From Frankia alni ACN14a (GTDB lineage Bacteria; Actinomycetota; Actinomycetes; Frankiales; Frankiaceae): 64,000 bases of DNA. The stretch spans positions 6,876,962-6,940,961 of the forward strand of contig NC_008278.1 in the NCBI RefSeq assembly GCF_000058485.1. The letters run 5' to 3'. Positions 1-28,057 of the stretch are shown here, piece after piece. Every line of letters begins with the position of its first letter. Position 1 is the stretch's first letter. The notes under the pieces were generated by a model. That model was not told the origin of the DNA and ran no database searches. It saw only the letters and a list, made by a program, of their open reading frames with translations. Both the position numbers and the translations under genes were made by a program.

Positions 1-311
1 CCGGTCCCGGTGGTGACGATCGTCGGCTGGGCGTTGTGACCGTCGGTGGACAGCCGCTCGAACGCCCGGGCCTGGTGGATGTGCGGCCGGAAGTCCCGCG
101 GCAGCCAACCCAGCGGTGAGCGCCAGTTCTCATCCACCGACCGGAACGGCGTGCGCAGCCGCAGGTACGGGCCGCGGAAGATGCCGTGCTCGCGGTCCTC
201 CAGGAACTGCCGCAGCGCCGCCCTGGCCTCGTCATCCGCGAGCGCGAACGTCGTCGTCAGGTATTCGAGGACCCCGGCCCGCGTCTCCCCCGCCAGCAAC
301 GACGGAATCAC
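1..311 (-). CDS. Large DEAD/DEAH-type helicase, N-terminal fragment (runs off window)
   Basis: Only the first 103 codons are present. The GTG start overlaps the methyltransferase stop as GTGA, which indicates translational coupling. The fragment has the layout that precedes the Walker A loop in large SF2 helicases linked to methylase defence systems: a conserved PYLRLRTPFR stretch near residues 47-56, HQARAF near residue 79, then PTIVTTGT at the window edge, where GSGKT would be expected. By position, third after an SNF2 helicase and an N6-adenine methyltransferase, it corresponds to DrmA of class 1 DISARM or to a related DUF1998-type helicase. The missing remainder prevents a firmer call. 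Confidence 0.75.
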   Translation of the reverse strand, partial: MIPSLLAGETRAGVLEYLTTTFALADDEARAALRQFLEDREHGIFRGPYLRLRTPFRSVDENWRSPLGWLPRDFRPHIHQARAFERLSTDGHNAQPTIVTTGT

Positions 312-5092: not shown

Positions 5093-5096
5093 GGCT

Positions 5097-7922: not shown

Positions 7923-8261
7923 CTGCTGCCCCCCGGCTGAGCGACTATCCGCGAGCAACGACCATATTCGCCTGCCTAATCCCTTCTGTACGCGGATCGC
8001 TCCATCCGGTCCGCGCACGAGCCCGAACCCGCGATCCGCGAGACGCCAGGGGTTCCCGCCGCCGCGCGACCCCTCCGGCGGGCATGGCGGCGCCCGCTTG
8101 GGGCCAGCACGCCCGAAAAGATGGCCTGAACTGCGCATTTTTCAAATAGCGGGTGTCAGTAGAGAATTCAGAATCGTTCAAGGCGGGAACGTTTGTTCGA
8201 CCTCGAAATCACGATGCGTCGTGTGGCGCGGCAACGGGCGCTACCCTGTCCAACTTCGACT
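7923..8261. promoter_or_regulatory. Intergenic region carrying the defence-operon promoter
   Basis: About 340 bp separate the SNF2 helicase start from the relaxase 3' end, both on the minus strand. The stretch around 8135-8210 is relatively A/T-rich and is the likeliest site of a minus-strand promoter. I could not fix -35/-10 boxes. No other gene is evident. Confidence 0.4.
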
Positions 8262-8314
8262 AAGCCCAGCTCAAGGCGGGTGAATCGGTGAGTCAGAGCT
8301 CGAAGTGCGTAGCT
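8262..8314. repeat. 53-bp direct repeat, copy 1 (relaxase 3' end)
   Basis: This 53-bp stretch covers the last codons of the relaxase gene and about 30 bp downstream. It recurs in the same orientation at 39525-39577 with two mismatches. Beyond the repeat, similarity to the relaxase continues at the second site in decayed form. The two copies bracket about 31 kb. Confidence 0.85.
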
Positions 8315-11300
8315 GCGCCCGCGTGGCCGGACGGGTCGGTGGGCGGTCCGAGCTCGGCGTGGAGGGTCGCGGCGTCAGCTTGCAGGCCGAGGGCGGCGCC
8401 GAGGAGCCGTGCTCGTCTGCCCTGAGCCCAGTCCGGCTCTGTGGACGCGGGTAGTCCGCCCGCCGCCCGGAGCGTGCGTAGCTCGAAGGCCAGCTCAGCG
8501 TTCGGTCGGCTGGCCAGGTGGTGGATCTCGGCGCGGTCGAGGAGGTGCACGGTGCGCTGCCAGTCGTGGCGGGCTCCGGGCGACGGCGGATCGGCGTAGG
8601 CAGCCGGGTCAACGTCGGCGGTCTCGCAGAGCCGGGCGAGCCGATGGTCGACGATGGCGAGACCGTCGCGGATGGCACCATGGTCGATCGCCGCCAGGGC
8701 CCGGCTGAGGGCGGCGGGGGTCGATCCGGCGTCGAGGAAGGCGTGGATTGCTGCGGTTGCGCGTTCGGCCGCCGGACCACGGATGTCCGGCCGGCCGGTG
8801 GGGTGCAGCGCCGATGCCCATGCCTCGACGAGAGCGGCGGCGAGGTCGTGCTGTTCCTCCCAGCGGTGGCGAACGTCGCCGTCGTGGTCGTCGGGCGGTG
8901 GCGGTCCGGGATCTCCCGGTTCGAGGTGAGCAGCGTGGCGCACCTGGTAGATCGCGAGACTCGCCACGGCGTCGTCCCAGGCCCGGCGGACCGGTCCACC
9001 CGCGGGACGAGGTCCGATGCGTTCGAGCAGGATGGCCGGTGGATCGGCGAGCGACGCGGCGGCCACGGCGGCCTCCGCGGACCGCTCCGCCCGCGCGAGC
9101 ACCACCGGATCGATCTCTTTGCCGTCCCCGTCAAGCGCCCTCGAGGGCCAGTCACCCGCGCTGTTCGCGCCGGGTCTCGCGCCGTTCGCGCCACGATCCA
9201 CCTCCACCGCGCCGCGCCCTGCACTGACCGCGCCGATGATCGGATCGCCATCCGCGCCGAGGAGACCGCTGTTGTGCGCGCCGGGGCGCGACCTGAACGA
9301 CGGGGTCCTGCTGGATTGCCCACCGCCGGTGGCAGGGCGGAGTTGGCGGCGCAGGGCGGTCAGCTCGGCCAGGGTGTACTCACGGCGCAGCTGGGCGACG
9401 GCCGCCGCGGCCGGGTCGAGGGCCTGGACGAGCCGGTCGGTCCGGGAGGCGGCCAGGCGGCCGGCGAGCCGGTCGAGCGGGTCACCGCGGGTGGGTACGA
9501 CGGGCAGCAGATCCTCGGTGTCGCCCGGCGCAGCAAGCTCGTCACTGTCGATGAGGTAGGCGGCCAGGTCGGTGCGGGCGCGCGAAAGCATGACGTACAG
9601 GCCGGGTCGGCTCGTGCGGTCAGTGACGACCGGTCGGGCGGTGGCCATCGTGCTGCCCTGCGCCTTGTGCGCCGTGATCGCGTAGGCGTGCGTCAGCCCG
9701 CCGTCGCGACCGTCGGGGAAGACGTGGGTGAGGTAGTCCCAGCCGATGCTCACGACGCCCTTGCCGGGGAAGTCGACAGTCAGCGTCCGGCCCTCCGGCC
9801 GGTCGTCCGTAGCCGGCCCGGAGTCGATGGCGAGGACCGTCCCGATCGTGCCGGTGCGGATGTAGGCCGACGCCGGTCTGCCGGCGGGGATGAGCGTGTG
9901 GCCGGCCTGGGTGAGGGTGATGACCTCGTCGCCGACGTGGAACCGGCGGCCGGCGACCTCCAGGAACAGGTCCGGGTCGAGCTCACCGGCCTGCATCCGG
10001 CGAAGCTGCGCGGCCCGGTTGAGCCACTCGACCGTCCCGTGATCGCCCGCCATCATCCGCGGCAGATCGACGTGCCGCGAGTGGTCAGCGCCGCGCCGGC
10101 TCCTCCCCGGCGCGTGGTCCGCGCCGGATGCCGCGCCGACTCTGGCGCGGTTCGCGTCGACTCTGGCGCGGTTCGCGCCGGTGGCCGCGCTGCGGACGGT
10201 GCTTCGTTCGTCGTGCCAGTCCTCGACGATGGCGGCGAGCAGGCTCGGCCGGTCGTGGAAGCGGTGGAGCCGGCCGTCGGCGGCCAGCCGCGCCATGGCG
10301 CGGCGCACCTGGTCGGGTGCTCCAGCGCGCAGGCCGGCCAGGGCGGCGCGCACCCCGTTCATGCCCGCTCCGGCCTGGCGATGCACGGTGGTCAGGGTCG
10401 CGACGTCGGGCAGGGTGGCGGCGAGATGGGCGAACCAGCCGCCCGGGCCGATCGCGCCGAGCTGGGCGGGGTCGCCCAGGGCGAGGATGACCGTGCCGGT
10501 GTCGGTCGCGTAGCGCAGGAGGCGCGCGGCATTGCGGGTGGTGACGTGGGTGGCCTCGTCGAGGATGAGCATCGTGCCGGGCGGCCAGATGTCTGCCGGC
10601 CGGTCGGCGTGGTCGAGGAGGGTGAGCCAGCCGGCGACCACCCGACCGTCGATGCCAAGCCGGCCGGTGAGTTCCTCGGTCTGCCGGCCGCCGTGCGCCG
10701 CTCCCAGCACGGTCCGCCCAGCGTCCCGTAGTACGGCGACCAGGAGCCGCATCGCCTCGGTCTTGCCCGAGCCCGCCGGTCCGACGAGCACCCGAACCAG
10801 ATCGGTGGAGGTCAGCAGCGCCCGGACCGCGTCCACCTGCTCAACAGCCAGCACCGCCGGCTCGACGTGCCCCGCGCCGTACTCGCGGCGCGGGTCGAGG
10901 TGCCCCGCCAGGGCGGCTTCCAGCTCGTCCGGTCCGATGAGCCGATGCTCCCGGCCGGCGTAGGCGGTGCGCCCGGCCTCGCAGAGGGCGAGCACGTTGT
11001 CCTCGGCGTCGAGGAGATCGAGCGTGGTGTAGATGGGTTCGGGATCGCGGCGCCGACGGGGGGTGTCCTCGTCGACCATGGCCAGCCGGGCATCGGCGAG
11101 GATGTGGGCGGTGAGCCGGTCGATGTCGGTGGCGTCGAGCCGGTCCACGCCCCAGGCGGCCACAGCCTGGGCAACATCACGGGCGGTGAAGGTCGCGGAC
11201 CGCGCGGTGAGTCCGTCCGGTCCGGTGAGCAGCTCGGCGAGTTCGGCCAGATCGTCGGGGCCGATGGCCGTCGGCCGGTAGTCGGTCCGCGCGCCGGCTG

Positions 11301-12636
11301 CCAGGACGTCCGCCGCCGTCCATCCCGCGGCTTCGAGCCGGGCGTGCTGGGCGGTGCGGATCTCCGCGTCGGCCTGCGCCCGTTTCGGCGCCCGGGTCCC
11401 CCTCTGGACCGCCTCGCGTAGAGCCGGGCCGTCGGTTGCGCCGCTGGCGACCAGCTCGGCGAGTTCCGCGTCGATCTGCGCCCGCCGCGAGGAGAACACC
11501 GCCAGCAGGTCCGCCGGCAGCCCGGCCAGTTCGGCGACTCCGTTCCGGACCGGTCCCCACTGCAGCCCCCGACGGGCCGACAGTTCGTGGCGCAGCACCG
11601 CCGCCGCCACATAGCCGGCGGTCTTCACGTGTGCGTGCAGCAGCTCGCTGTCGACCGTCCGCCACACCATCCGAGGTCGTCCGGCGCCATCTCGCAGCGG
11701 CTCGCCGTCCTCGTCGAGGAGCGGGATGGGAACCGCGTTCGCCAGCACGGTGTGGATGTGCAGATGGGGTTCCTCGGCCCGGGAAATGTCGTGCAGGAAA
11801 GACACCCCGGCCAGGCCCACCCCAGGCCGGTTATGGCCGTCGACCAGCCCGACTCCGGCCTGCCGCTCCAGATAGCCGATCGCCGCATCCACCGCGACAT
11901 TCATCGCCTCGGCGAGGTCACGCCGCAGGTCATCGTCACCGAATGCCCAGAGCAGGCTCACTGATTTCGGCGCCGAGGCGGTCACGTCGAATCCAAGCAC
12001 CACCGTGGGCGGCTCGCGTTCCTCGAGGAAGCGGGCGAGTTCGTCGCGGTGCACCCGCCACCGGCCGGCGGAGTCCTTCGCCGCCGCCAGCCGATCCCGG
12101 TCCGACCCAGCGTCGGTCCCGTCGTCGTCGGCCGCCGGACGGCCCGCCGTGTCCGATGCTCCGGCGTCGACGGTCCCAGCGTCATCGCGGCTGGTCCGCG
12201 CCGCGAGCCGCCGCAGGTAACGTGCGCTGACACCGGCGATCCGGGCAGCCTCCGCCAGCGACAACCACTCGCCGGATCCCCGGCCGCCGTCAAGGCGCCT
12301 GCTGTGAGCGGCGCGGCCGGCCGATCCGGTCGCCGGCACGAGCGGTCTCCCGCTCGTGGCGTGCTGACCAGCGAGCAACCGGGCGAGGCGCTCGCGCGGC
12401 ACAGCGGCTCCCGGCCGCAGGCCGACCAGCGCAGCCGCCGAACCCCGCGCGACCCCGCCCGTGTAGTAGCGCGCCAGGCCGGAACTCTTGGCCGACTGCG
12501 TACCGCCCACCGCGGCGAACCGGGCGGCCTCACCGGGCGTGCCGCCGTGCAGGTAGTCGACGATTCGCCACACCGCGCCCGCCACCGTCGTCCCGGCGGC
12601 GGCGCGCAAACCCAGCACCTTCACCGTGACAATCAC
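8293..12636 (-). CDS. traA: MobF-family conjugative relaxase/helicase (TraA/TrwC-like)
   Basis: A 1447-residue relaxase that would nick and unwind element DNA for transfer. The metal-binding triad HLHIH lies near residues 291-295 in the TrwC relaxase domain. A RecD-like helicase follows, with Walker A GPAGSGKT near 618-625, LILDEATH as Walker B, and the late motif AHKAQGSTM with YVMLSRA. Residues about 120-215 contain an inserted helix-turn-helix segment (LSLAEAARIAGVSARYLRRL), so the relaxase domain is interrupted or extended by a DNA-binding module. The GTG at 12636 is preceded by GGAGG at good spacing and gives a start VIVTVKVLGL, usual for actinomycete homologues. A decayed copy of its 3' end lies at 39556-40175. 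Confidence 0.93.
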   Translation of the reverse strand: MIVTVKVLGLRAAAGTTVAGAVWRIVDYLHGGTPGEAARFAAVGGTQSAKSSGLARYYTGGVARGSAAALVGLRPGAAVPRERLARLLAGQHATSGRPLVPATGSAGRAAHSRRLDGGRGSGEWLSLAEAARIAGVSARYLRRLAARTSRDDAGTVDAGASDTAGRPAADDDGTDAGSDRDRLAAAKDSAGRWRVHRDELARFLEEREPPTVVLGFDVTASAPKSVSLLWAFGDDDLRRDLAEAMNVAVDAAIGYLERQAGVGLVDGHNRPGVGLAGVSFLHDISRAEEPHLHIHTVLANAVPIPLLDEDGEPLRDGAGRPRMVWRTVDSELLHAHVKTAGYVAAAVLRHELSARRGLQWGPVRNGVAELAGLPADLLAVFSSRRAQIDAELAELVASGATDGPALREAVQRGTRAPKRAQADAEIRTAQHARLEAAGWTAADVLAAGARTDYRPTAIGPDDLAELAELLTGPDGLTARSATFTARDVAQAVAAWGVDRLDATDIDRLTAHILADARLAMVDEDTPRRRRDPEPIYTTLDLLDAEDNVLALCEAGRTAYAGREHRLIGPDELEAALAGHLDPRREYGAGHVEPAVLAVEQVDAVRALLTSTDLVRVLVGPAGSGKTEAMRLLVAVLRDAGRTVLGAAHGGRQTEELTGRLGIDGRVVAGWLTLLDHADRPADIWPPGTMLILDEATHVTTRNAARLLRYATDTGTVILALGDPAQLGAIGPGGWFAHLAATLPDVATLTTVHRQAGAGMNGVRAALAGLRAGAPDQVRRAMARLAADGRLHRFHDRPSLLAAIVEDWHDERSTVRSAATGANRARVDANRARVGAASGADHAPGRSRRGADHSRHVDLPRMMAGDHGTVEWLNRAAQLRRMQAGELDPDLFLEVAGRRFHVGDEVITLTQAGHTLIPAGRPASAYIRTGTIGTVLAIDSGPATDDRPEGRTLTVDFPGKGVVSIGWDYLTHVFPDGRDGGLTHAYAITAHKAQGSTMATARPVVTDRTSRPGLYVMLSRARTDLAAYLIDSDELAAPGDTEDLLPVVPTRGDPLDRLAGRLAASRTDRLVQALDPAAAAVAQLRREYTLAELTALRRQLRPATGGGQSSRTPSFRSRPGAHNSGLLGADGDPIIGAVSAGRGAVEVDRGANGARPGANSAGDWPSRALDGDGKEIDPVVLARAERSAEAAVAAASLADPPAILLERIGPRPAGGPVRRAWDDAVASLAIYQVRHAAHLEPGDPGPPPPDDHDGDVRHRWEEQHDLAAALVEAWASALHPTGRPDIRGPAAERATAAIHAFLDAGSTPAALSRALAAIDHGAIRDGLAIVDHRLARLCETADVDPAAYADPPSPGARHDWQRTVHLLDRAEIHHLASRPNAELAFELRTLRAAGGLPASTEPDWAQGRRARLLGAALGLQADAATLHAELGPPTDPSGHAGAATHFEL

Positions 12637-12825
12637 CGGACGCGGCCTCCAACCCAAACCCGGGATGCACCCGACTCCGTTTATCCGCTCAACCAAGAAG
12701 GAAAGCAACGGGCTACTTCCAGGCCACCGGGTATCATTTCCGGCCGGCCCGTCCGTCTCGGTGATTGGAAATTCCGCTGAATGTCGTCGGCTGCTTTTCC
12801 GTCCGGCTCACCAAAGACATGAAGC

Positions 12826-13092
12826 TCACGCACCCTGCGTCGGCTCGACCCCGCCGTCGACAGCCGCCGATCCGTGCGGCCGGGTAGCGGAACCCAGACC
12901 GAGCAAGGCGTGCACGCCGGCGGTGGGCACCACGTACCGCCGGCCCACGCGCAGCACTGGGCAGGGAAACTCGCCCCGCCGAGCGAGCTCGTAGCCCAGA
13001 GTCCGACCCAGGCCCAGCGCACGGCAGGCAGTCGGCACATCGATCGTCGCCGGCAGCGCCAGCACCTCATCCCGCGACATGCTTGATCCCAT
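12826..13092 (-). CDS. Small helix-turn-helix protein, excisionase-like
   Basis: An 88-residue protein with a MerR/AlpA-type helix-turn-helix: VPTACRALGLGRTLGYELAR followed by FPCPVLRVGRRYVVPTAGV, the recognition helix plus wing seen in excisionases and AlpA-like plasmid regulators. The ATG at 13092 follows GGAGGGG by 7 nt, which settles the start over the internal ATG four codons later. It lies upstream of the relaxase on the same strand, 189 nt away, a usual place for a directionality factor or transfer-gene regulator in actinomycete integrative elements. Which of the two it is cannot be told from sequence. Confidence 0.8.
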   Translation of the reverse strand: MGSSMSRDEVLALPATIDVPTACRALGLGRTLGYELARRGEFPCPVLRVGRRYVVPTAGVHALLGLGSATRPHGSAAVDGGVEPTQGA

Positions 13093-13710
13093 GGGGCAAC
13101 CCCTCCGGAGAGCCGGACGTGCCGTCACCTCGCTGGAGTGCCGCGGAGCACGCCAGCGGAAGCGGACACCACCGCTGACCTGGCGGGATCCGTCACGCTC
13201 CAACCCGTCGCCTCGTCGAGACCGCCTTTTCGGTCCCGGATAGCCCCGGCCGGCGGCGCGTCCCGCACATCTGACAGGTCATCGTCGAGGCCATCGCGGA
13301 CGCCATCCGCCCTGCGCAGAGTCTCTCGGTAGCGGGTCCGATCCGTCGTTCCACTCCAAGAAGGCGGCGGCTCGGGATGTCACCGGCGATCAGCGGCTGA
13401 CCAGCCATGGGGAACCTTGTCGGGAAGAACTCCGGGAAGGTCGACCGGAGAGCCGGGAAACGTTCCCCGCACCGCCACGTCGCCGAAAACGGCGTCGGCC
13501 GTGCCCACCGGACAGGTGAGAACGCGGGACGCGCCGCCGGCTCAACCCGCCGTCCGGCACTGCGGCCCAGCCGGTCGGCTTCGGCCGATCCCCGCCGCGG
13601 GGGTCACGACGAGCGTCCTCGATACGCGGCAGAAATTTGGCACGAGCACGTCGCCTGGTTCCGGCGTCCATGAGCTGCCATTCGGCTACGCAGCGAGCCC
13701 AACCTCATCG
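13093..13710. other. Intergenic region without a supported gene
   Basis: About 620 bp between the divergent HTH and coiled-coil genes. Short open frames exist on both strands, but none has a convincing start, motif or codon pattern. Promoters for both flanking genes should lie here. Confidence 0.4.
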
Positions 13711-15643: not shown

Positions 15644-15985
15644 ATGTCACGTCGGCAGGTCGCGGCGGTCGGTGGTGGCATCACATTCGCGATGGCGGGC
15701 GCGGCGGGGGCCGCGGGCGGCCAGCTCGGCGGCCATGCACTGTGGGCGTGGGTGTGCCTGCTAGTCGCCGTGCTCGTCGGTGGCGTGGTCACAGGGTGGG
15801 TGGCGTGGCGGACGACGGATCCGGATCCTGTCCCGCCGCCGGACGATCCTCCGTCTCCGCCGCCGTCAGGTAGCCCGCGCGTCGGGGACGTCCGGATCGG
15901 TGGCGTGTCGGCGTCAGATGGCGGTCAGGTTGCGGGAGTGAACTTCGGGCAAATGATCCAACATCGAGATGGTGCTGGCTCGTGA
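15644..15985 (+). CDS. Small two-helix membrane protein with C-terminal amyloid-type motif
   Basis: A 113-residue protein not recognised as a named family. Residues about 6-28 form a Gly/Ala-rich hydrophobic helix and 33-55 a second one (WAWVCLLVAVLVGGVVTGW). A proline-rich linker covers 59-78. The tail, residues 84-106, reads RIGGVSASDGGQVAGVNFGQ then MIQ, and matches the N-terminus of the next protein at 10 of 23 positions, with nearly all others conservative. The ATG at 15644 follows GGGGCGGGA. Its stop overlaps the NACHT start as GTGA, so the two are co-translated. The layout suggests a membrane effector or anchor recruited by, or recruiting, the NACHT protein through homotypic motif assembly. 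That is inference. Confidence 0.7.
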   Translation: MSRRQVAAVGGGITFAMAGAAGAAGGQLGGHALWAWVCLLVAVLVGGVVTGWVAWRTTDPDPVPPPDDPPSPPPSGSPRVGDVRIGGVSASDGGQVAGVNFGQMIQHRDGAGS

Positions 15986-18900
15986 CGCAGACGCCGCAGC
16001 ATTTCTCGACGGCTTCGGGCGATGACCGGGCGTCGCAGTACGATGCTCAGATCAAGGTAGGTGACCTGTCGGCACCAGGTGGCGGGCAGGCTGTCGGCAT
16101 CAACTACGGCACGGCGGTTCAGCAATATTTCCAGGGGCCATTCCGGTTGTTACGACAGGCCGTGATCGACCTTGATCCGCTACCAGGTGATCTACGGCTC
16201 GTCGATCCCGAGGAGCCGACTAACCCAGTAGGCTTGTTCCGGGGTCGGGAAAAGCTGATCGGGAAGATCGACGCCTTCCTGGCCTTGTGTGTACAGCGGC
16301 GGCGGGGTGGATTCCTATTAGTCGAGGCCGAGGCGGGGATGGGGAAGTCAGCCCTGGCGGCCTATCTGGCATTCACTCGAGCGTGGCCGGCGCATTTCAC
16401 CCGGCTGGCAGAGGGGCGAGATTCGGCGACGGCGCGGCGGAACCTGGCCGCACAGCTCATCGCGCGGTGGAAGCTGACAGATGCGGCGCCGGGCGGGGTT
16501 CTTCCCGAGGGCGCGGGGACTACGGGGTGGTTGCACGGCCGGTTGTGCGACTCGGCCACAGCGCGGGACCGAGACGATCCCGGCGTACCGGTGGTACTGC
16601 TTATCGACGGCTTGGACGAGGCACCGGTCTCGGTGGGTGGTGAGCTCCCGTTGGGGTTGCCGCCGAACTTGCCGGCGGGCACGGTGATCGTGGCGACGAC
16701 CCGACCGAAGTCGATACGGATACCGGCCGGATCCCGGGTGGTGGAACGCATCGATGTGGAAAGTGAGGCGAACCGGACGGATCTACTAGACTATCTGACT
16801 GTGGTGACCGCACGGGATCCGCTGCTCTCCGAGCCACTGAATCGTGCCCAGATGGATTCTCACCGGTTCTGCCGGACCTTGGTGGAGAGGTCCGGCGGAG
16901 TGTGGATCTACGCTCTATCGATCCTCGATCAGATCCGGGACCACGGCCGGTCGCCTAAGGGAGTGGACCGGCTGCCAGCGAGCCTAGCGGGGTATTATGC
17001 AGAAAACGTGCGACGCTGGCAAGATGAACTTGGTGACCATCTGTGGGAAACTGCCGGATTACCGGTACTGACAACGGTCACGGCAATCCGAGAGCCTATG
17101 TCCGTGGCGCGGATCGCCGCATGGGCCGATGTTCCTCCGGCAATGACGCGCACGATCCTTCGAGGAATGTTGAAACCTTTTCTAGCGGTCCGTCGCGGCG
17201 GTGACCCAGACCTGTACGTACCGCGGCATCAAAGCCTCCGAGACTTCTGCGACGGCACGTCCCTGCTCGACAGCGACGACGATGGATTGCGGGAGCTGGC
17301 CTACGATCTGGCTGCAGCGACTCGTGCGGCCCATCGTCGTATCGCCGTGGCGGTGGAACCGTCGGGTCCGGTGGGGCGACGGGACTGGGCTGTCGCGGGC
17401 CGGTACGCCCGGACGTATCTCGCCGAACATGCCGCGCTCGGCGGCCAACTCGACGAGCTCATCACCGACCCGCAGTTCGGACTTTTTGTTGGTGTGGCAT
17501 GCCTGCTGCGTCAGCGCCGGCACCTGACCACAGCCGAGGCCAAGAAGGCACTTGCCGCACTGGAACTGGCAGCCGGCCATAACAACGATGACGCATTGTG
17601 GCTGCGATGGATAGAGGTGTCTGCCCGCAAGATGCGCGCCGACACGTTTGCTGACCGCGCCGCGTCCCTCGTCGACGAGACCTGGCATCCAATCCGGGCC
17701 ATGTGGACAGGTAACAGCCACCGCACCCTCATCGGCCACACCAAAACGGTGCGCGCGGTGACGGCAGTGCCGCTGCGTGACGGCAGGACGCTACTCGCCT
17801 CCGCTGGCGACGACGGATCCATACGGTTGTGGGATCCGATCGAGGGCACCCCCGCGGGCACCCTCACCGGCCACACCGCCAGGGTGTTCGCGCTGGCCGT
17901 GGTACCGCTGCGTGACGGCAGGACGCTGCTCGCCTCCGCTGGCGACGACGGATCCATACGGTTGTGGGATCCGATCGAGGGCACCCCCGCCGGCACCCTC
18001 ACCGGCCACACCGTCGGAGGATTCTCGCTGGCCGTGGTACCGCTGACTGACGGCAGAACACTGCTCGCCTCCGCCGGGGCCGACAAGGCGGTGCGGCTGT
18101 GGGATCCGGTCGCCGGCACCCTTGCCGGCACTCTTACCGGCCACACCGACTGGGTGCGCGCGGTGACAGCAGTGCCGCTACCCGACGGCGGGACGCTGCT
18201 CGCTACCGCCGGGGACGACAGAGCGGTGCGGTTGTGGGATCCGATTGAGGGCACCCCCGCCGGCACCCTCACCGGCCACACCGACTGGGTGAACGCCCTG
18301 ACGGCCGTGCCGCTGCCCGACGGCGGGACGCTGCTCGCCTCCGCCGGGTCCGACGGGTCGGTTCGGCTGTGGGATCCGATCACCGCCACCCTCACCGGCC
18401 ATACCGGCCGGGTGAACGCCCTGGCGGTGGTGCCGCTGCCCGACGACGGGGCGCTGCTCGCCTCCGCAGGTAACGATGGCTCGGTGCGGTTGTGGGATCC
18501 GATCGCCGCCACCGCTGTCGGTACCCTCACCGGCCACACCGCCGGTGTCCGCGCGGTGACAGCAGTGCCGCTACCCGACGGCGGGACGCTGCTCGCTACC
18601 GCCGGGGACGACAGAGCGGTGCGGTTGTGGGATCCGATTGAGGGCACCCCCGCCGGCACCCTCACCGGCCACACCGACTGGGTGAACGCCCTGACGGCCG
18701 TGCCGCTGCCCGACGGCGGGACGCTGCTCGCCTCCGCCGGGTCCGACGGGTCGGTTCGGCTGTGGGATCCGATCACCGCCACCCTCACCGGTACTCTGAG
18801 CAGCCACACCGACTGGGTGCGCACGCTGGCCGCGGTGCCGCTACCTGGCGGCGGGATACTGCTCGCCTCCGCTGGAGCCGAGGGGTCTCTGCGGTTGTGG

Positions 18901-19602
18901 GATCCGACCGAGGGCACTCCTGCCGGTATTCTCACCGGCCACACCGGTTGGGTACGCACGCTGGCCGCGGTGCCGCTACCTGGCGGCGGGACGCTGCTCG
19001 CCTCCGCAGGTAACGATGGCTCGGTGCGGTTGTGGGATCCGATCGCCGCCACCGCTGTCGGTGCCCTCACTGGCCACACGGCCGGGGTGAATGCGTTGAC
19101 CGCAGTACCGCTGCCTGACAGCCGGATACTCCTCGCCTCCGCCGGGGACGACGGATCAGTGCGCTTGTGGAACCCAGTCACCGCCGTCGCAGTCGGTGCC
19201 CTCACCGGCCACACCGAGCCAGTCAACGCGGTGGCAACGCTGGCGCTGCCCGACGGCCGGGTACTGCTCGCTTCCGCCGGATACGACGGGTCGGTGCGGT
19301 TGTGGGATCCGATCGCCGGCACCCTGGCCGGTATCCTCACTGGCCACACGGCCGGGGTGAATGCGTTGACCGCAGTACCGCTGCCTGACAGCCGGATACT
19401 CCTCGCCTCCGCCGGGGACGACGGATCAGTGCGCTTGTGGAACCCAGTCACCGCCGTCGCAGTCGGTGCCCTCACCGGCCACACCGAGCCAGTCAACGCG
19501 GTGGCAACGCTGGCGCTGCCCGACGGCCGGGTACTGCTCGCTTCCGCCGGGGATGATCGAGCGATCATCCTCTGGCAGGCGTTGGCCGGCACTGTCCTAT
19601 GA
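15982..19602 (+). CDS. NACHT-type NTPase with 14 WD40 repeats (NLR-like sensor)
   Basis: A 1206-residue STAND ATPase. Residues 24-50 carry the motif shared with the upstream membrane protein (KVGDLSAPGGGQAVGINYG). The NTPase follows, with Walker A EAGMGKS near 117-123 and Walker B VVLLIDGLDEAP near 205-215, then a helical region. From about residue 575 there are 14 WD40 repeats, each with a GHT motif and an RLWDP-type end, enough for two seven-bladed propellers. Several blades are identical at DNA level, so the sensor region is being homogenised or has expanded recently. One blade (near 18370) is shortened before its GHT. Bacterial NLR-like proteins of this form act in phage defence or self/non-self sensing; this one's trigger is unknown. 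Confidence 0.88.
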   Translation: MTQTPQHFSTASGDDRASQYDAQIKVGDLSAPGGGQAVGINYGTAVQQYFQGPFRLLRQAVIDLDPLPGDLRLVDPEEPTNPVGLFRGREKLIGKIDAFLALCVQRRRGGFLLVEAEAGMGKSALAAYLAFTRAWPAHFTRLAEGRDSATARRNLAAQLIARWKLTDAAPGGVLPEGAGTTGWLHGRLCDSATARDRDDPGVPVVLLIDGLDEAPVSVGGELPLGLPPNLPAGTVIVATTRPKSIRIPAGSRVVERIDVESEANRTDLLDYLTVVTARDPLLSEPLNRAQMDSHRFCRTLVERSGGVWIYALSILDQIRDHGRSPKGVDRLPASLAGYYAENVRRWQDELGDHLWETAGLPVLTTVTAIREPMSVARIAAWADVPPAMTRTILRGMLKPFLAVRRGGDPDLYVPRHQSLRDFCDGTSLLDSDDDGLRELAYDLAAATRAAHRRIAVAVEPSGPVGRRDWAVAGRYARTYLAEHAALGGQLDELITDPQFGLFVGVACLLRQRRHLTTAEAKKALAALELAAGHNNDDALWLRWIEVSARKMRADTFADRAASLVDETWHPIRAMWTGNSHRTLIGHTKTVRAVTAVPLRDGRTLLASAGDDGSIRLWDPIEGTPAGTLTGHTARVFALAVVPLRDGRTLLASAGDDGSIRLWDPIEGTPAGTLTGHTVGGFSLAVVPLTDGRTLLASAGADKAVRLWDPVAGTLAGTLTGHTDWVRAVTAVPLPDGGTLLATAGDDRAVRLWDPIEGTPAGTLTGHTDWVNALTAVPLPDGGTLLASAGSDGSVRLWDPITATLTGHTGRVNALAVVPLPDDGALLASAGNDGSVRLWDPIAATAVGTLTGHTAGVRAVTAVPLPDGGTLLATAGDDRAVRLWDPIEGTPAGTLTGHTDWVNALTAVPLPDGGTLLASAGSDGSVRLWDPITATLTGTLSSHTDWVRTLAAVPLPGGGILLASAGAEGSLRLWDPTEGTPAGILTGHTGWVRTLAAVPLPGGGTLLASAGNDGSVRLWDPIAATAVGALTGHTAGVNALTAVPLPDSRILLASAGDDGSVRLWNPVTAVAVGALTGHTEPVNAVATLALPDGRVLLASAGYDGSVRLWDPIAGTLAGILTGHTAGVNALTAVPLPDSRILLASAGDDGSVRLWNPVTAVAVGALTGHTEPVNAVATLALPDGRVLLASAGDDRAIILWQALAGTVL
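18157..18791 (+). repeat. Identical 242-bp WD40 blocks, 393-bp period
   Basis: Bases 18157-18398 recur without visible change at 18550-18791, inside the NACHT-WD40 gene. The offset of 393 bp keeps the reading frame and corresponds to about three blades. Synonymous positions are also identical, pointing to recent duplication or gene conversion. Confidence 0.85.
19066..19550 (+). repeat. Identical 215-bp WD40 blocks, 270-bp period
   Basis: Bases 19066-19280 recur at 19336-19550 with no visible change. The 270-bp offset equals two blades in frame. Together with the 393-bp duplication it shows the propeller array growing by unequal exchange. Confidence 0.85.
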
Positions 19603-21242: not shown

Positions 21243-22220
21243 TCAGCTCCGGGGCAGGAGGGCTGTGGTCGCGGCGCGGGCGAGGATGCCCTGGCTGGCG
21301 GCGGACAGGCCGAACCGGTTCCAGTGAAAGATCAGCACATGGGTCATGATCGCCCGGACCCCACGGTCCAGGCCACCTCGCGCGGCGGCGTCGTCGAGCC
21401 GGCGGCCGGCGGTCTGGAACGCGGCAAGCCAGGGCGCGGCGTGCTCGACCGGCCCACCGGAGGTGAACAGTTCACTGGTGGACAGGTCAGGGATCGACAG
21501 GAGAGCGCGCACGTTCTGCGCCAGGCGTTCGATCCGGGCGGCGTCGGCCTCGGCTGGTGTAGGTCGCAGCCGGGCAACCCGGTCGAAGACGTCGCCGCAC
21601 TCGAACACGTCGAGTCCTGCGGCGCGGAGGAGGCCGCCGAGCAGCAGGATCGACAGTTCGCGACGGCCGAGGCCGGGAGCATCATGGCGCACGTAGTCGA
21701 GCACGCCGCGGGAATCGGCGCAGAACAGGTCGTGGGCGACGTCCATCCCGGCCGTCCCGCCGAAAGCGGCGGTCTCAGGCTCGTACACCGTCGGCCACCA
21801 GCGTGCGACGACCCCGGTGTCGGTCAGCTCGTCGAGCACCCGATCGACGGCGCCGCGGTCCGCACCGGGCAGGCGCAGTCGCCAACAGGGATACTTGCGC
21901 AGGAACCACCATCCCTCGATCTCGCCGCCGGCCTGGAGTCGGTCCAGCCGCGGCCCGAGCCCGGTAGCACCGACCGCCTCGGCAGCCGACCAGTCGGGAA
22001 ACTGGACACACACCTGGTAGCAGGCGTGCTCGGCGGATCGTTCCAGCGCTGCGAGCCCGGCGGCCTGGAAGACCTCGACGGCTTCGTCAAGGTCAATCGG
22101 GTCCAGAGCGCTGTTGGCCGCGGTGACCTCCAGATCGGCGCCCGCGAGCACCGCGAGGACACCGGCGGCGAGGCCGTACGGGGACGTGACGATCAGGTGA
22201 TCAGCAGGCATGCGTCCCAT
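21243..22220 (-). CDS. Stand-alone SpaB_C-like (thiopeptide-type) biosynthesis protein
   Basis: A 325-residue protein of the family labelled thiopeptide-type bacteriocin biosynthesis protein, related to the elimination domain of LanB. Diagnostic stretches are WWFLRKYPCWRLRL near residue 80, RWWPTVYEPETAAFGG near 118, and the conserved DLFCADSRGVL that follows. In split dehydratases this domain removes glutamate from glutamylated Ser/Thr. Here a full-length LanB with its own copy is also present, so this one may act on a second step or as a partner. The start overlaps the end of lanC by 28 nt; the internal ATG at 22211 is an equal candidate. Confidence 0.82.
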   Translation of the reverse strand: MGRMPADHLIVTSPYGLAAGVLAVLAGADLEVTAANSALDPIDLDEAVEVFQAAGLAALERSAEHACYQVCVQFPDWSAAEAVGATGLGPRLDRLQAGGEIEGWWFLRKYPCWRLRLPGADRGAVDRVLDELTDTGVVARWWPTVYEPETAAFGGTAGMDVAHDLFCADSRGVLDYVRHDAPGLGRRELSILLLGGLLRAAGLDVFECGDVFDRVARLRPTPAEADAARIERLAQNVRALLSIPDLSTSELFTSGGPVEHAAPWLAAFQTAGRRLDDAAARGGLDRGVRAIMTHVLIFHWNRFGLSAASQGILARAATTALLPRS

Positions 22221-23377
22221 CCCGTACGTGGCGGCCCGGTGTGCCGGGCGGTTTCCAGCGCCAGGGCCACCCCTGCGCTTCCGGTCAGCAACCCGCCCTT
22301 GTCGTCCTGATCCCCGAACGGACCTGCGTGCTGGGCCAGCCGGGCGGCCAGCGCGGGAAGCCGGCGGCCGAGGGCGGGGGTCTGCGCGTCGCGGGCGGCC
22401 CGGTAGGCGGTCTGGTAGATCCCGGCCATGCCGTGGCACAGGCCCGGCTCGGTGATCCGATCGAGCTGGATGTCGGTCAGGCTCGCGGCCAGGGCATCCT
22501 CTGCCGCTTCGACGCGTCGGGGGTCGCCAGTGGCGATCGCGGCGAGCTGCTGGGCGCGGGCGATGCCGGCCGTCCCGTAACACCACGACCCTCGGTCGGG
22601 ACGAGGCTGGGCGGGACGGCCGGTCCCCAGCTCCTCCCGGGTGATCCACTGCGGCCACCACGGCCCGTCCGCGCCGTCTTGGCGCCATCGGTCGAACCAG
22701 CCGGTCAGAACGGCGATCGCCTCGGGTTGGCCGTCGACCAGGCAGCCGCGGGCGGCGGCGAGAGCGAGGAAGGCGAGCAGCCCGGCCGCGCCGTGCGCCA
22801 TACCGAAGTTCGCGTGGCCGCCGGGAGTCGGCAGGATCTCATCCGGGTCGTGCGCGACCCACCATCCCGGCAGCTCGATGCTGTCCTGGCGGTGTGGCCT
22901 GGTCAGGCTGATCACGTACCGCAGGATCTCGGCGAGGACGTCGCTACCGGGACTACACCGCAACAGCAGCGCACCGATCCCCGTCAGCCCATAGAAGACG
23001 TCGAACTCGGCGAACGTGGCAGCCTCACCGCGCTCGATCCTGCCGGCCGCGGTCGCCAGACGCCGACGGGCCAGGGATAGCACGTGCTCGATCAGCGCCT
23101 CGGAGGCCGCGCGGTATCGCGGATGTTGATCGGAGACGGTGTGCAGCAGGAAGGCGAGGGCGGGCGCCCCGTAATACAGGCCGGTGTGCTCGGCGGCATC
23201 GACCGGCCCGGCCACCGCCCGCCGGATCGTCGTCCGAGCCGTCTCCCAGTCCCCGGAGCCGGCCAGGGCCCGCTCGACCTGCAGCAGCGCTGTCCCCACC
23301 GCGCCCCGGGCCAGGGATTGCCTGGTCGCCTCGGCAGCGGTGAGCGTCACCAGGCCGGTGCCCTCGGCGGGGTTCAC
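22193..23377 (-). CDS. lanC: Lanthionine synthetase C-like cyclase
   Basis: A 394-residue LanC-type cyclase that adds Cys thiols to dehydrated residues to form (methyl)lanthionine rings. The zinc-site motifs are visible in order: FGMAHGAAG, WCYGTAG (first Cys ligand) and LCHGMAGI (Cys-His ligands), spaced as in the alpha/alpha toroid family. GTG at 23377 overlaps the LanB stop as GTGA, implying coupling. An unrelated open extension of this frame covers part of lanB and was not used. Confidence 0.92.
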   Translation of the reverse strand: MNPAEGTGLVTLTAAEATRQSLARGAVGTALLQVERALAGSGDWETARTTIRRAVAGPVDAAEHTGLYYGAPALAFLLHTVSDQHPRYRAASEALIEHVLSLARRRLATAAGRIERGEAATFAEFDVFYGLTGIGALLLRCSPGSDVLAEILRYVISLTRPHRQDSIELPGWWVAHDPDEILPTPGGHANFGMAHGAAGLLAFLALAAARGCLVDGQPEAIAVLTGWFDRWRQDGADGPWWPQWITREELGTGRPAQPRPDRGSWCYGTAGIARAQQLAAIATGDPRRVEAAEDALAASLTDIQLDRITEPGLCHGMAGIYQTAYRAARDAQTPALGRRLPALAARLAQHAGPFGDQDDKGGLLTGSAGVALALETARHTGPPRTGWDACLLIT

Positions 23378-26300
23378 CGGGCACCAGCCCGAGCAAGGCG
23401 GCGCAGCGCGGCGGCGCGGGCGAGTCGGCCGGTCTCCCGCTCGTGCGTCGGATCGACGCCGATGGCGCGTACGTGGTGCTCGTGCAGCAGGGTGCGAAGC
23501 ACGGCTGCCGGATCGCGCTGCTCGGCGAGGGCGCGATGGTAGGCGGTCAGCGCGGTGTCCCTGGCGGCCCAGGCCGCCGCGACCGCATCCCCGCCCGGCA
23601 GGGTGCGAATGGCTCGATATCGTCCGTCGGCCTCGGCCAGGCCAAGCGCGTGGTCGCGCAGCGTCCGGTCCAGCGGCCCGTGTTCCTGACGCAGGCAGGC
23701 GACGAGCGCCCGACATCCGGATTCCGGTTCGGGGGCGAAGGCAGCGGCCAGGTGCGCCATCGACGCCGCGGCCAGCGCCTGCGCGGGAACCCCGGAGGCC
23801 TGCGCCGTCGCGATCTGCGCGATGGCGGCTGCGGTGTCGGTGGCGAACACGCGCTCGGCCGCAGCGAGCGCCGGGCCGTCGCCGTAACGGGCGGGATGCT
23901 GCGGGTGGGAGGCGAGGGTGAGCTGGCAGGGGAGCCCGCGCGCTTCCAGCTCGGACGCGAAGGCGGCCACCTTCGCGGCGGCCGGTCCGTACTGTTCGGG
24001 GCTGCCCAGGTGCAGGAACACGGCGAGATGCTGATCGGACTCGGGAAGGATCAGGTTGCGGTGCCGACGCACCCACCAGAACCGGACCAGACCATCGAGG
24101 TCGTCGAGGAACCTGGGCAGGTGAGCGGTGAGGATCTCGTCGAACCGCGCGGGGTTGCCCACCACCTGCGCGTGCAGCACCGCGGAGTCACCTGGTCGAA
24201 GGACGGCGCCTGGCGCTGCGGTCGCTGGTAGCGGCCGGGCGGGCGAGGTGATCGCGGTCAGTGGGATCAGCAGCTCTGCCGGGCGCCCGATCCATCCCTC
24301 GCAGCCGGCCGGACCGGCTTCCTGTAGCTCGACTCGCCCGGCTCGCTCCGCCTGAGCCCGTAACAGGGCCCGGTCCAGCTCCTGATCGAGGTCGAGGGGC
24401 AGGCGCAGCTCACCGTGGCACAGCACGATCCGGGCCGGCACCCGCCACCGTTGTCGCCAGGAACCCAGAGCATCCTGCGCGCCGCCGCCGGCCGGAGGGC
24501 CGGGCAGGTCCGCGGCGGTGAGAATCCAGCGGGCGGCGGCCAGCACCGTACGCCGGTACCGGATACGCGGCACGTAGGGCAGGACGCGGGCCGCGCCAAG
24601 GTCGAACCCTCCGAACCGCGCGCTGCGCGCATCGGCGACCTCGGCGAGGAACCGGGCCAGCGGTGGGCTCTGCACAACCGTGTCCAGAGCATGGGGAACC
24701 CGCGGGATCACCCGCCGACCGGTGGAGCGCTGAACCAGGTACATCTGGTCGGCATCGGCCGTTACAGCCAGGTCGTCGACCTCGATCACCCTGACATCAG
24801 GGTGGGTGGATTCAGGATGCTCCGACAGCGAGACGACGTCCGGGAGCAGCGGCGCGACGCGCACCACGTTCTCGTTGTGCGGCCGACGTGGCGGGAAGGA
24901 CATCTGCACCGCCACCGCCCCGTCCGGCGCTCCCGCCTCGGGTTCCGCGGTGAACGTGGCGGCCAGCCGGGCGCGGTCGGCGTCGTCGAGCAGGTGGGCG
25001 AACCGTCCGGCCATGCTGGTGGGGGCGCGCGGCGCGGCGGTGACGCGCAGCTGGAAATCGCCGCGGTCGATCGCCTCGGTCGAGACGGCGTGCACCTCGA
25101 CCCCGAGTTCGATCCGCTGTGGCGGGACGATGTCGGCGTGCTCCCCGATGGTCAACGCCTCGATGTCTGCGTCGGTCAGCTCGATCTCCTCGGCCCCGTC
25201 CACGGTGGCCTGCTGGATCAACGCCAACAGGGCGGCGTCGCGCTCGGTCAGCATCCGCCAGGCGGGCCTGGCCCGGGGCGCACCGAGATAGCCGGTGGGA
25301 TATCCGAGCCCGGAGTCGGCGACCATCTCCCGGACCGGCACCAGCGCGCCGGGACCGTAACGGGCGCGGAACCGGGCGTGGTAGTCCAGCCAGGCCGCCG
25401 AGCCGAACGGCTGCGTCGTCACCCGCAGCAGCACGCTGGCCGCGAGCGCAGCCTCGGTCAACACCCGCTCGGGGACAGCGATCCGCGCGTCGAGCCGCAC
25501 GTCGGCGGCCAGCGCGTGCCCGGCGACGGGGACGAGCGCGGTCATCTGCCCGATGACCGCGTTCCGGATCTTCGCCGCCTGCTCCAGGTTGGAGGTGCTG
25601 TTGTGGCAAGCCAGCTGCGCGCTGATGTCGTCGAGTTCGTGCAGCAGCGCGCCGAGGTCGGCCAGGTCCTCTCCCCCGGCCGAACGTAACGCGCAGATCA
25701 GATAGGCCAAGGCGTCGACGGCCGTCATCGGTGGCCACAGGCTCGTGATCAGGAAGCCCCCGTCGACCAGACCGTCCAGCACCATGCGGATCTTGCCTGG
25801 GGAGGCGGACGGGAACCTGGTGGTCATCCGGGCGGCGAGGGCGTCGAGCCGGATCGGCGAGCCGGCCGCAGCCAGCGCGACCTGGACGGGCCGGGTGAGC
25901 CGTACCGACGACTCCCGCAGCGGCCCCGGAGATGATGCGCCCACCTCGGCCCGGCTGTGCACGATGACCCGGCCATCCCGCACGGTCCGGGTGTTGTCGG
26001 CCACCACCGTCAGCCGGGGGCGCAGCTCCGGGCGTCGTTCGAGCTGGTCGATCAGCGTCGTGACCCATTCCGCGTCCGCCCGCACCACCGCCCGGTGCCC
26101 CGCCCCCACCTCGGCCATCGCGGGGCCGAGGGCGGCGGCGCCGACCCCGGCGAACAGGCCGAACGGGGTCGCGCGCCGCTGCCACCGCAGCAGATAGGAC
26201 GCCACCGAGACGATGGCGCGACGCATCTCCTTCGCCGTGTGGGGCCTGGCGCCCTCGTCGAGGAGCTGGTCGATACGCGCGGCGAGAGCCGTGCTGGCCA

Positions 26301-26481
26301 GCTGTAGCGCCTCGCGTACCTCCGGGCGCACCCAGATCTTCGCCAACCATGCCCGGCCTTCCTGCTCGACCGCGGCAGGGTCGGACAGGTTCAGCCAGGT
26401 CGGCAGCTCGAGGTCGCCGGGGTCCGTGGTCGCACGAACCAGGACGGCGCCGGTGTGCTGGAAGCGCAGGGACACGGTCAT
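23374..26481 (-). CDS. lanB: Class I lanthipeptide dehydratase, full length
   Basis: A 1035-residue LanB. The N-terminal glutamylation domain is recognised by SYLLRWQRRATPFGLFAGVG near residue 105, and the C-terminal SpaB_C elimination domain starts near 755 (WWVRRHRNLILPESDQHLAVFLHL). The enzyme uses glutamyl-tRNA to activate Ser/Thr and eliminates glutamate to give dehydroalanine/dehydrobutyrine. ATG 26481 is chosen over an in-frame GTG seven codons upstream because homologues begin near MTVSLRFQ. A GC hairpin separates it from the precursor gene, which would lower its expression relative to the peptide. Confidence 0.93.
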   Translation of the reverse strand: MTVSLRFQHTGAVLVRATTDPGDLELPTWLNLSDPAAVEQEGRAWLAKIWVRPEVREALQLASTALAARIDQLLDEGARPHTAKEMRRAIVSVASYLLRWQRRATPFGLFAGVGAAALGPAMAEVGAGHRAVVRADAEWVTTLIDQLERRPELRPRLTVVADNTRTVRDGRVIVHSRAEVGASSPGPLRESSVRLTRPVQVALAAAGSPIRLDALAARMTTRFPSASPGKIRMVLDGLVDGGFLITSLWPPMTAVDALAYLICALRSAGGEDLADLGALLHELDDISAQLACHNSTSNLEQAAKIRNAVIGQMTALVPVAGHALAADVRLDARIAVPERVLTEAALAASVLLRVTTQPFGSAAWLDYHARFRARYGPGALVPVREMVADSGLGYPTGYLGAPRARPAWRMLTERDAALLALIQQATVDGAEEIELTDADIEALTIGEHADIVPPQRIELGVEVHAVSTEAIDRGDFQLRVTAAPRAPTSMAGRFAHLLDDADRARLAATFTAEPEAGAPDGAVAVQMSFPPRRPHNENVVRVAPLLPDVVSLSEHPESTHPDVRVIEVDDLAVTADADQMYLVQRSTGRRVIPRVPHALDTVVQSPPLARFLAEVADARSARFGGFDLGAARVLPYVPRIRYRRTVLAAARWILTAADLPGPPAGGGAQDALGSWRQRWRVPARIVLCHGELRLPLDLDQELDRALLRAQAERAGRVELQEAGPAGCEGWIGRPAELLIPLTAITSPARPLPATAAPGAVLRPGDSAVLHAQVVGNPARFDEILTAHLPRFLDDLDGLVRFWWVRRHRNLILPESDQHLAVFLHLGSPEQYGPAAAKVAAFASELEARGLPCQLTLASHPQHPARYGDGPALAAAERVFATDTAAAIAQIATAQASGVPAQALAAASMAHLAAAFAPEPESGCRALVACLRQEHGPLDRTLRDHALGLAEADGRYRAIRTLPGGDAVAAAWAARDTALTAYHRALAEQRDPAAVLRTLLHEHHVRAIGVDPTHERETGRLARAAALRRLARAGAR

Positions 26482-26511
26482 GGCGATCCCATCTCGTCGC
26501 ACCGGACCGCA

Positions 26512-26551
26512 GCCGCCGCCGGCGCCGGCGCCCAGCGACTCAGGCGGCGGC
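26512..26551 (-). terminator. GC hairpin between precursor and lanB (partial terminator)
   Basis: Arms GCCGCCGCC (26512-26520) and GGCGGCGGC (26543-26551) are exact complements. The hairpin starts 9 nt after the precursor stop codon. Such attenuators let the structural gene be transcribed more than the enzyme genes; the role is inferred from position. Confidence 0.55.
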
Positions 26552-26559
26552 GCGCCGCG

Positions 26560-26751
26560 TCAGGACGGGTCGTTGGACGCGGTGCTGCAGGCGCTGGTGC
26601 TGCAGCTGCTGCCGCAGCCATCGCTCGTGTCACACATCATGATCACGAGTCGCGTGGTGGACTCCACCACGCGCATGTCGAGCTCGAACTCCGCGTCGTC
26701 GATCGCGGAGTCCGTGGACTCGGGGCGATCGACCGCAAGCACTGGCGACAT
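26560..26751 (-). CDS. FxLD-family lanthipeptide precursor
   Basis: A 63-residue precursor. The leader holds the family signature FELD at residues 22-25, followed by MRVVES. The core, about residues 31-63, has four Cys (40, 46, 50, 55) and many Ser/Thr: TTRLVIMMCDTSDGCGSSC then STSACSTASNDPS. It can supply up to four thioether rings. Asp44-Gly45 is a succinimide-prone pair and a natural target for the adjacent PIMT-like methyltransferase. GAGGAG precedes the ATG. No dedicated exporter or leader protease is seen nearby. Confidence 0.93.
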   Translation of the reverse strand: MSPVLAVDRPESTDSAIDDAEFELDMRVVESTTRLVIMMCDTSDGCGSSCSTSACSTASNDPS

Positions 26752-26809
26752 TGAGGCGACTCCTCACGTTGCTGGGGTTGGGGTGGTGCTTCCTGGCCTG
26801 CGGTGATGG

Positions 26810-28057
26810 TCAGCGGGCGGTCGGCCAGGAGATCGTGACCAGGCCGTGGGTCTTCTCCAACGCCGCCGTGCCCTCGCCGATCGGGGTGCGGTCGGCGCCG
26901 GTCGGCCAGTAGGCGAAGGTGGGGGCCGGGCCGCTTCGGGCCCAGCGGTCCCAGGCCTGGATCTGTTCGACCATGGCGGTGGCGGCGGTCTCGCCGCGTG
27001 CCCCATAGGCGCGCGCGCCGAACTCGACTCCGGCGCCTTCCAGGGCCGGGCGCACCGCCAGGTAGGCGAAGGAGTCATCGCGCACGACCCCGAAGGGGAA
27101 CCAGCTCCGGCGTTCCGCGGCCAGATCAGTTCCCTCATCCACCGCCAGCTTGCAGAATCCGCGCAGGAAGCTGGCGAACCACAGGTGCAGGTCGGCGAAC
27201 GAGACGCCATGCCTGATCGTGACCCCGGACCACCTCTCGTCGCGCTCGGTCGCCAGGACTCCGTCCAGCAGACTCATGTCCTGCGGCACGTCGCCGTCGA
27301 ATCGCAGCTTGACGTTGCGGCCCTGCGCGTCGGGAAGCAGGAAGACCCGCTCGTCATGTGCGCCCGATCCCTGCATCGGGACGAACCCGCACACCTGCGC
27401 CGAGGTGCTCACCAGATGGTCACCCTCGCGGCGGAAGCCGATCGAGCGAGTGATTCCGTTCATCCGCAGCGGAACGACGATCCTGCCGTCCTCGGACAAC
27501 TGCGCAAGCCAGGTCGGCGCGATGTCCCACGCTCCGACCGTCACAAGAATTGCGTCGACCCTCTCGTCGAGGTCGGGCACGCCGTCCTCGGCGTCGGCCC
27601 GCACAACCGTGACCCGGCCGCCGTACCCGGTCGCCTCCAGCAGAGCGCTGGCCCGGTCGGTCACCTCCGAGTCGATGTCCACGCTGACCACGCGGCCACT
27701 CGGACCGACGACCTCGGCCAGGAGAGCGGCATTGAAGCCACCGCCGCCGATCTCCAGCACGCTCATGCCGGGCCCGAGCCCGGCCTGCTCGATCATCTGG
27801 GCCTGGATGAACGGAGCGCTGACCGAGGAGATGATCACGCCGTCCTGGTCGCGTTTGACCGCCACCGAGTCGTCGGCGTTGTAGGAGACCTCCAGCGGCG
27901 TGCCCTCGGGGACGAACAGGTGCCGCGGCACCGTGCGGAAGGCCCGCTCGACGACGGGCGAGGTAATCACGCCGTCCGCGCGAAGCTTGTCCGTCAGGGC
28001 ATTACGGATCTCCGTCGCCCGGTCGCGACCGGTGGACGTGTCAACCATCTGAGTCAT
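26810..28057 (-). CDS. PIMT-like O-methyltransferase, FxLD system
   Basis: A 415-residue protein. The N-terminal half is a protein-L-isoaspartate methyltransferase fold, with RHLFVPEG near residue 49 and SAM motif VLEIGGGGFNAALL near 101 followed by VVSVDID. The C-terminal extension (to 415) is typical of FxLD-cluster enzymes. Related lanthipeptide enzymes methylate a core Asp, which closes to a succinimide and opens to isoaspartate. It stands 58 bp upstream of the precursor in the same direction and so heads the operon. Confidence 0.9.
   Translation of the reverse strand: MTQMVDTSTGRDRATEIRNALTDKLRADGVITSPVVERAFRTVPRHLFVPEGTPLEVSYNADDSVAVKRDQDGVIISSVSAPFIQAQMIEQAGLGPGMSVLEIGGGGFNAALLAEVVGPSGRVVSVDIDSEVTDRASALLEATGYGGRVTVVRADAEDGVPDLDERVDAILVTVGAWDIAPTWLAQLSEDGRIVVPLRMNGITRSIGFRREGDHLVSTSAQVCGFVPMQGSGAHDERVFLLPDAQGRNVKLRFDGDVPQDMSLLDGVLATERDERWSGVTIRHGVSFADLHLWFASFLRGFCKLAVDEGTDLAAERRSWFPFGVVRDDSFAYLAVRPALEGAGVEFGARAYGARGETAATAMVEQIQAWDRWARSGPAPTFAYWPTGADRTPIGEGTAALEKTHGLVTISWPTAR

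Follow-up and report, generated by a model that had tools for sequence, protein, structure and literature searches.

Why should the tail of a small membrane protein and the head of the large receptor encoded next to it carry the same short sequence? The question is raised by a locus in a 64,000-nucleotide stretch of the Frankia alni ACN14a genome (hereafter the window; the host genome is a single contig of 7,497,934 bases, and its nearest named relatives are Frankia). Two overlapping genes encode a two-helix protein, the putative effector, and a NOD-like receptor (NLR) composed of a STAND-type NTPase and WD40 repeats. The two genes probably make up an NLR signalosome of the bacterial amyloid-signalling (BASS) type, and the shared motif very probably serves as the plug through which the sensor recruits a partner that would attack the membrane. 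We favour the signalosome because the motif match lies far beyond chance and is specific to the pair in the host genome; because every confident locus of the effector hairpin, across four motif classes, has a motif-matched neighbour, and the true pairing of tails and heads beats random pairings; because TIR effectors with the same motif precede orthologous NLRs, and the match is kept in Sphaerisporangium, where gene order is altered; because the receptor motif is conserved in a disordered head whose preceding residues are not; and because the receptor core is Apaf-1-like, the two genes overlap, and restriction-methylase and helicase genes adjoin them.

The effector gene (15644..15985, forward strand) starts with ATG at 15644, immediately downstream of a ribosome-site-like stretch, GGGGGCGGG, and stops at 15985. 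Its product of 113 amino acids comprises a two-helix membrane hairpin (residues 3-57), a Pro-rich linker and the C-terminal motif. An alternative in-frame GTG at 15617 would yield 122 amino acids; the relative in Frankia QA3 likewise begins MSRRRV, as does the product of the ATG at 15644. The NLR gene (15982..19602, forward strand) starts with GTG at 15982, ends at 19602 and encodes a 1206-residue STAND NTPase with 14 WD40 repeats. The 4-nucleotide overlap of the two genes, GTGA, is present also in Frankia QA3 and at locus L105, described below. An earlier reading of the window, made from the letters alone (the sequence-only reading), had proposed overlapping genes for 113 and 1206 residues, and the coordinates, lengths and overlap are all borne out.

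The same reading had noted an ungapped match with ten identities between the two proteins, which we recover over 24 residues. Effector residues 83-106 (VRIGGVSASDGGQVAGVNFGQMIQ; 15890..15961, forward strand), marked out by this alignment, by the pairing matrix and by selection, correspond without gaps to NLR residues 24-47 (IKVGDLSAPGGGQAVGINYGTAVQ; 16051..16122, forward strand), which lie within the predicted disordered head of the receptor (residues 1-49), and 10/24 positions are identical (G, S, A, G, G, Q, G, N, G and Q). The alignment has a BLOSUM62 score of 67; none of 5000 shuffles of tail and head reached this value, and the best scored 50. A motif hidden Markov model (HMM), built with neither the window nor the Frankia QA3 sequences, was run over all six translated frames of the window. 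It picked out just the NLR site (E 4e-10) and the effector site (E 1e-7), with the next match at E 2.7. A motif profile search of the whole genome, with a profile that included both window copies, matched only these two sites and no third. Against solved structures the motif gave chance matches only, the best being to glucose oxidase (E 0.04), and it had no match to Pfam RHIM up to E 1, its spacing being GxN instead of GxxN.

Whether the motifs of homologous pairs co-vary was examined from two directions. NLR relatives were collected irrespective of the motif and their neighbouring genes were then read; a profile of the hairpin alone was also searched, with matches at E <= 1e-5 taken as confident and those weaker than E 1e-4 not counted. 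Several weak matches above E 1e-4 were unrelated membrane proteins or spurious open reading frames. The hairpin search yielded seven confident loci including the window, six of them outside the host genome, and two (L105 and L095) outside the NLR-derived set. A matching motif is found in the neighbouring gene at 7/7 of these loci, which fall into four motif classes (GQAxGxNYG, GPGAxxAGRD, a RHIM-like GVQFGxHNxQ and one more); the motifs agree within pairs, not between classes.

Partners are exchanged around the motif. Frankia QA3 retains the membrane effector, with motif MGDVRVGDIVAPGGQAAGINYGQLIQ against VMVGDVSAPGGGQGIGVNYGTALHQ. A TIR protein (Pfam TIR_2, E 6e-33) is encoded by the gene preceding the orthologous NLR in Parafrankia colletiae, Frankia canadensis and others; it ends in a window-type motif, IQIGNVTAPGGQAIGVNYGQIIQ, and the NLR starts VTAPNGQAIGINYGQVLQ. 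A Sphaerisporangium genome has its membrane effector downstream of the NLR, with the motif match kept (TIGSVTASEGGTAVGVNYG and DVGSVTASDRGVAVGVNYG). The hairpin occurs with a different motif in F. canadensis and in genome G020, where its NLR carries that same motif (LGPGAVASGRDMEIGG and LGPGAIGAGRDLTIGG; VGPGAMAAGRDLTIGGDL and LGPGAIGAGGNIVVHGDL), and at loci L021-L023 related NLRs (GSIAVGGDAINSIFVTGG) are paired with a small helical protein ending GSVAIGRDATGSTITTGG. At L105 (5335-7554, genome G528) the hairpin tail is RHIM-like, ARGVQFGEHNRQVNYF (GVQFGEHNRQ), and the overlapping next gene encodes an AAA_16/WD40 receptor starting ARGVQSGGSHNQQENYF (GVQSGGSHNQQ), a pair that is possibly related to BASS3.

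All tails were scored against all heads in a 15 x 15 matrix, with values from 50 to 96 within the class-A block and mostly from 17 to 40 between classes. The true pairing sums to 1023, above all 100,000 random pairings (maximum 857). For the hairpin effectors alone, 8/100,000 random pairings reach the true sum of 482, the best at 501, because same-class pairs are interchangeable; with one pair per class, 16/100,000 equal the true sum and none is higher. Pairs that are related within a class are not independent data points in these tests, and the partners at L095 and L105 were recognised by the motif match itself, though in both the partner is the adjacent gene. Co-variation, on which the sequence-only reading had staked itself, is thus found, with one pair (genome G403) failing. 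The sequence comparisons show the effector and NLR motifs to be a co-evolving pair and the motif to be a swappable plug: the receptor family also pairs with TIR effectors that bear it, and the hairpin with other receptors that carry other motifs.

Between the window and Frankia QA3, the ratios of non-synonymous to synonymous substitution rates (dN/dS) rest on few codons and are rough. In the NLR, identity is 13% in the head before the motif, where dN/dS is about 1, and 69% in the motif itself, where it is 0.13. For the effector, the hairpin domain (residues 1-59; 15644..15820, forward strand) has dN/dS 0.12.

Further variants were seen among the relatives. One orthologous NLR (L015) has an extra N-terminal domain and retains the motif, another (L016) bears another motif (NTVSGQDFGPVVQARDIHFHG), and at L017/L034 the NLR is fused to a TIR domain and the motif is decayed. 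The hairpin effectors at L092 (3515-3910) and L093 (3041-3481) carry two motif pseudo-repeats (e.g. GRGGVFSGQDLKILGG and GPGAVASGRDMEIGG). TIR proteins at L089 (6939-8105) and L091 (4358-6043) have a central GQAxGxNYG-type motif followed by more sequence; at L089 an EAD1-STAND gene lies divergently upstream of the TIR protein.

Had the receptor been rightly read as a NACHT-WD40 protein? The WD40 part stands, and the NTPase is of the STAND type; the NACHT and AAA_16 scores stay under the curated Pfam cut-offs (AAA_16 E 1.7e-6; NACHT, PF05729, E 0.003, with 17.7 bits against a gathering cut-off of 26.7). The Walker B motif is NACHT-like, DGLDE. The NTPase core, nominally residues 116-214 (16327..16623, forward strand), spans Walker A (EAEAGMGKS) to Walker B (LLIDGLDE). 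The protein has the make-up that defines STAND/NLR proteins, a STAND-type P-loop NTPase followed by a repeat sensor, as seen in its Walker motifs, Apaf-1-like fold and 14 WD40 repeats. The profile of the NLR matched no PDB sequence at E <= 0.01, and fold comparison was therefore needed: residues 50-575 form a confidently predicted STAND core whose best PDB fold matches are Apaf-1, then among others CED-4 and NLRC4. The motif-bearing head, residues 1-49, is predicted to be unstructured, with a predicted local distance difference test score (pLDDT) below 50. The WD40 repeats (residues 582-1206; 17725..19599, forward strand) are mostly 45 residues long, some pairs of repeats are 96-98% identical, and variation is concentrated mainly at repeat positions 7, 8 and 29. 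In the NLR of Frankia QA3 (L009, about 8151) the WD40 region continues in another frame after residue 717, through a frameshift or a sequencing error.

The effector had been described as a two-helix membrane protein. The AlphaFold2 model, of low confidence (mean pLDDT 59), indeed has two helices, at residues 3-26 and 32-57, followed by an unstructured tail. With a Kyte-Doolittle value of 2.37, helix 2 is clearly membrane-spanning; the membrane character of helix 1, which is G/A-rich, is borderline (1.54). The hairpin relatives share this pattern of hydrophobicity, helix 2 being the stronger, except at L095, where helix 1 is. The effector type had been called unrecognised, and none of the models in the family libraries exceeded its cut-off on this protein; the best match, far sub-threshold, was the mycobacterial membrane protein PspM (NF047839; 19.5 bits against an NCBIfam cut-off of 80). 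PADLOC, run on the pair, gave a single match, HEAT-ARM_XIII, located in the WD40 repeats, and no known defence family. A search for plasmid carriage of the effector returned no match.

The hairpin may also be reached through an intermediate. At L095 (2107-5301, genome G363) three consecutive genes encode a STAND ATPase (836 amino acids, AAA_16/nSTAND), a protein of 100 amino acids and a hairpin effector. The ATPase starts with one motif (SVHVGGHADGPVVAGDYN), the effector ends with another (RQHNVARDSGRVFAAQDGDVVIR), and the 100-residue protein starts with the first (SITIGGNASGPVVAGNHN) and ends with the second (RQRNEAADHGTVFAVTHGDMHVH). These sequences suggest an adaptor that bears the receptor's motif at its start and the effector's at its end. 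The adaptor had no second full-length match in a search of 299 related genomes; the second of its motifs is seen again in further tail/head pairs, e.g. at L110. A cyclase-like protein at L095 (106-918, reverse strand) likewise ends in the second motif.

The layout is that of the BASS NLR/Bell pairs (Dyrka et al. 2020 J Mol Biol, as described in PMC7889193), in which adjacent or overlapping actinobacterial genes share a motif of about 25 residues, N-terminal in the NLR and C-terminal in the effector. The defining feature of BASS, the same short motif at these two ends, conserved as a pair, is what we find here; the GQAxGxNYG motif is likened to BASS by this layout, not by the BASS1-10 profiles. 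CHAT or TIR domains are less frequent BASS partners, and TIR proteins are the alternative partners in loci orthologous to the window. By analogy, the pair works like the published BASS pairs, and what differs is the minimal two-helix effector, named by no library: it spans about 59 residues, unlike the Bell helical bundle with its hydrophobic helix, with which it was compared by description only.

Similar relays are known from eukaryotes. In fungal HET-S/NWD2 and HELLP/PP, as proposed for the window pair, an NLR with a WD40-type sensor passes the fold of a motif to a membrane-targeting executor encoded next door, and the two motif pseudo-repeats at L092 and L093 recall the HET-s prion domain; unlike these fungal systems, the window pair is bacterial and has neither a HeLo/HELL domain nor motif sequence homology. 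The RHIM necrosome (RIPK1/RIPK3/MLKL) offers a homotypic motif relay to a membrane-disrupting executor, such as we suggest here, and the L105 relative of the hairpin has a RHIM-like motif with its NLR counterpart; the window motif, by contrast, departs from the RHIM signature. The receptor resembles the Apaf-1 apoptosome, its best structural match, in its STAND core and double WD40 propeller, but has an unstructured motif in place of CARD and a membrane protein, not a caspase, as partner. Fungal HNWD receptors (HET-D, HET-E, HET-R) likewise join a NACHT-type NTPase to highly similar WD40 units varying at few positions, units that show strong internal conservation and concerted evolution (PMC12881547); unlike in the window pair, their effector, a HET/TIR-like domain, is fused to the receptor.

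BASS and the fungal NLR signalosomes are the analogues from which amyloid formation, membrane damage, a propeller-ligand trigger and phage defence are proposed for the pair. The WD40 propellers would sense a trigger, probably an invader or a damage product, upon which the STAND NTPase, judging by its fold, would oligomerise as in Apaf-1. The oligomer would gather several flexible N-terminal motifs and thereby nucleate a beta-rich homotypic assembly, presumably amyloid, that would template the motif of the same type on the tail of the two-helix protein. Clustering of the hairpins would then breach the cell membrane and kill or arrest the cell, and the death or arrest of an infected cell may protect the colony.

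That the match itself arose by chance, as a by-product of Gly-rich composition or through recent duplication is scarcely credible. Both motif regions are rich in G, S and A, but the shuffles, which preserved this composition, never reached the observed score, the HMM found two sites only, matched pairs are seen again in several genera and motif classes, and the pairing matrix separates true from random combinations. The DNA of the two copies is 62% identical, with differences across all codon positions, which rules out recent duplication. Less easily dismissed, if unlikely, is that the motif is a non-amyloid homotypic docking element, such as a short beta-strand or solenoid contact, that brings effector molecules stoichiometrically to the ring of activated NLRs. 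All pairing and exchange results fit docking equally well, and the motif repeats are short, Gly-rich and not strongly Q/N-rich; the placement of 20-30 disordered residues at the receptor N-terminus and effector C-terminus, pseudo-repeated at L092 and L093, is however the layout of amyloid signalling motifs, which form fibrils in other families (PMC7885112, PMC9815663).

The membrane protein might instead be an anchor or regulator that keeps the NLR at the membrane while another protein kills. We consider this quite improbable, since a TIR protein, a typical effector, occupies the same position before the NLR in orthologous loci, and the hairpin and a TIR domain were not found together in one pair before the same NLR; what speaks for an anchor is that the hairpin is so short, is devoid of a known toxic domain or family match, and comes closest, far below threshold, to the membrane protein PspM. 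The signalosome also has observations against it. The effector-side motif is under weaker constraint (dN/dS 0.53 in the Frankia QA3 comparison, from few codons), helix 1 is borderline hydrophobic, and the effector model is of low confidence. At L106 (1769-5791, genome G403), whose hairpin is a weak relative (E 5e-4), the neighbour is a TPR/DnaJ_C protein with no significant motif match, the one exception seen, and the orthologous NLRs of L015 and L016 have no partner in the DNA read.

Whether the hairpin of about 59 residues represents a general, previously undescribed class of actinobacterial immune executors, connected to various NLRs through amyloid-type motifs that are freely exchanged and include a RHIM-like one, and once through the L095 adaptor, we regard as evenly poised. 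If so, a very small membrane executor would be added to the known effectors of bacterial NLRs, and the wiring logic would be clear: effector domain, motif and receptor recombine freely while motif partners stay matched. An effector of 113 residues and a motif of 25 are easy to synthesise, which makes amyloid templating by bacterial NLRs directly testable, and the RHIM-like motif on the same hairpin at L105 bears on possible bacterial roots of necroptosis-type motifs.

The genes next to the pair in the window (308-13203, reverse strand) probably belong to a mobile element with defence cargo. They encode a type IIG restriction-methylase (308-5092), a DrmD-like SNF2 helicase (5097-8138), a MobF relaxase (8293-12708), which replaces a RecD-like reading of that gene, and a small HTH_17 protein; the restriction-methylase and helicase neighbourhood fits a defence role for the pair. 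On the other side, also on the reverse strand, lies an FxLD lanthipeptide cluster (21243-28057), with a thiopeptide-type protein (21243-22688), a dehydratase (23374-26502), the precursor (26560-26751, TIGR04363) and the FxLD methyltransferase (26810-28057, TIGR04364).

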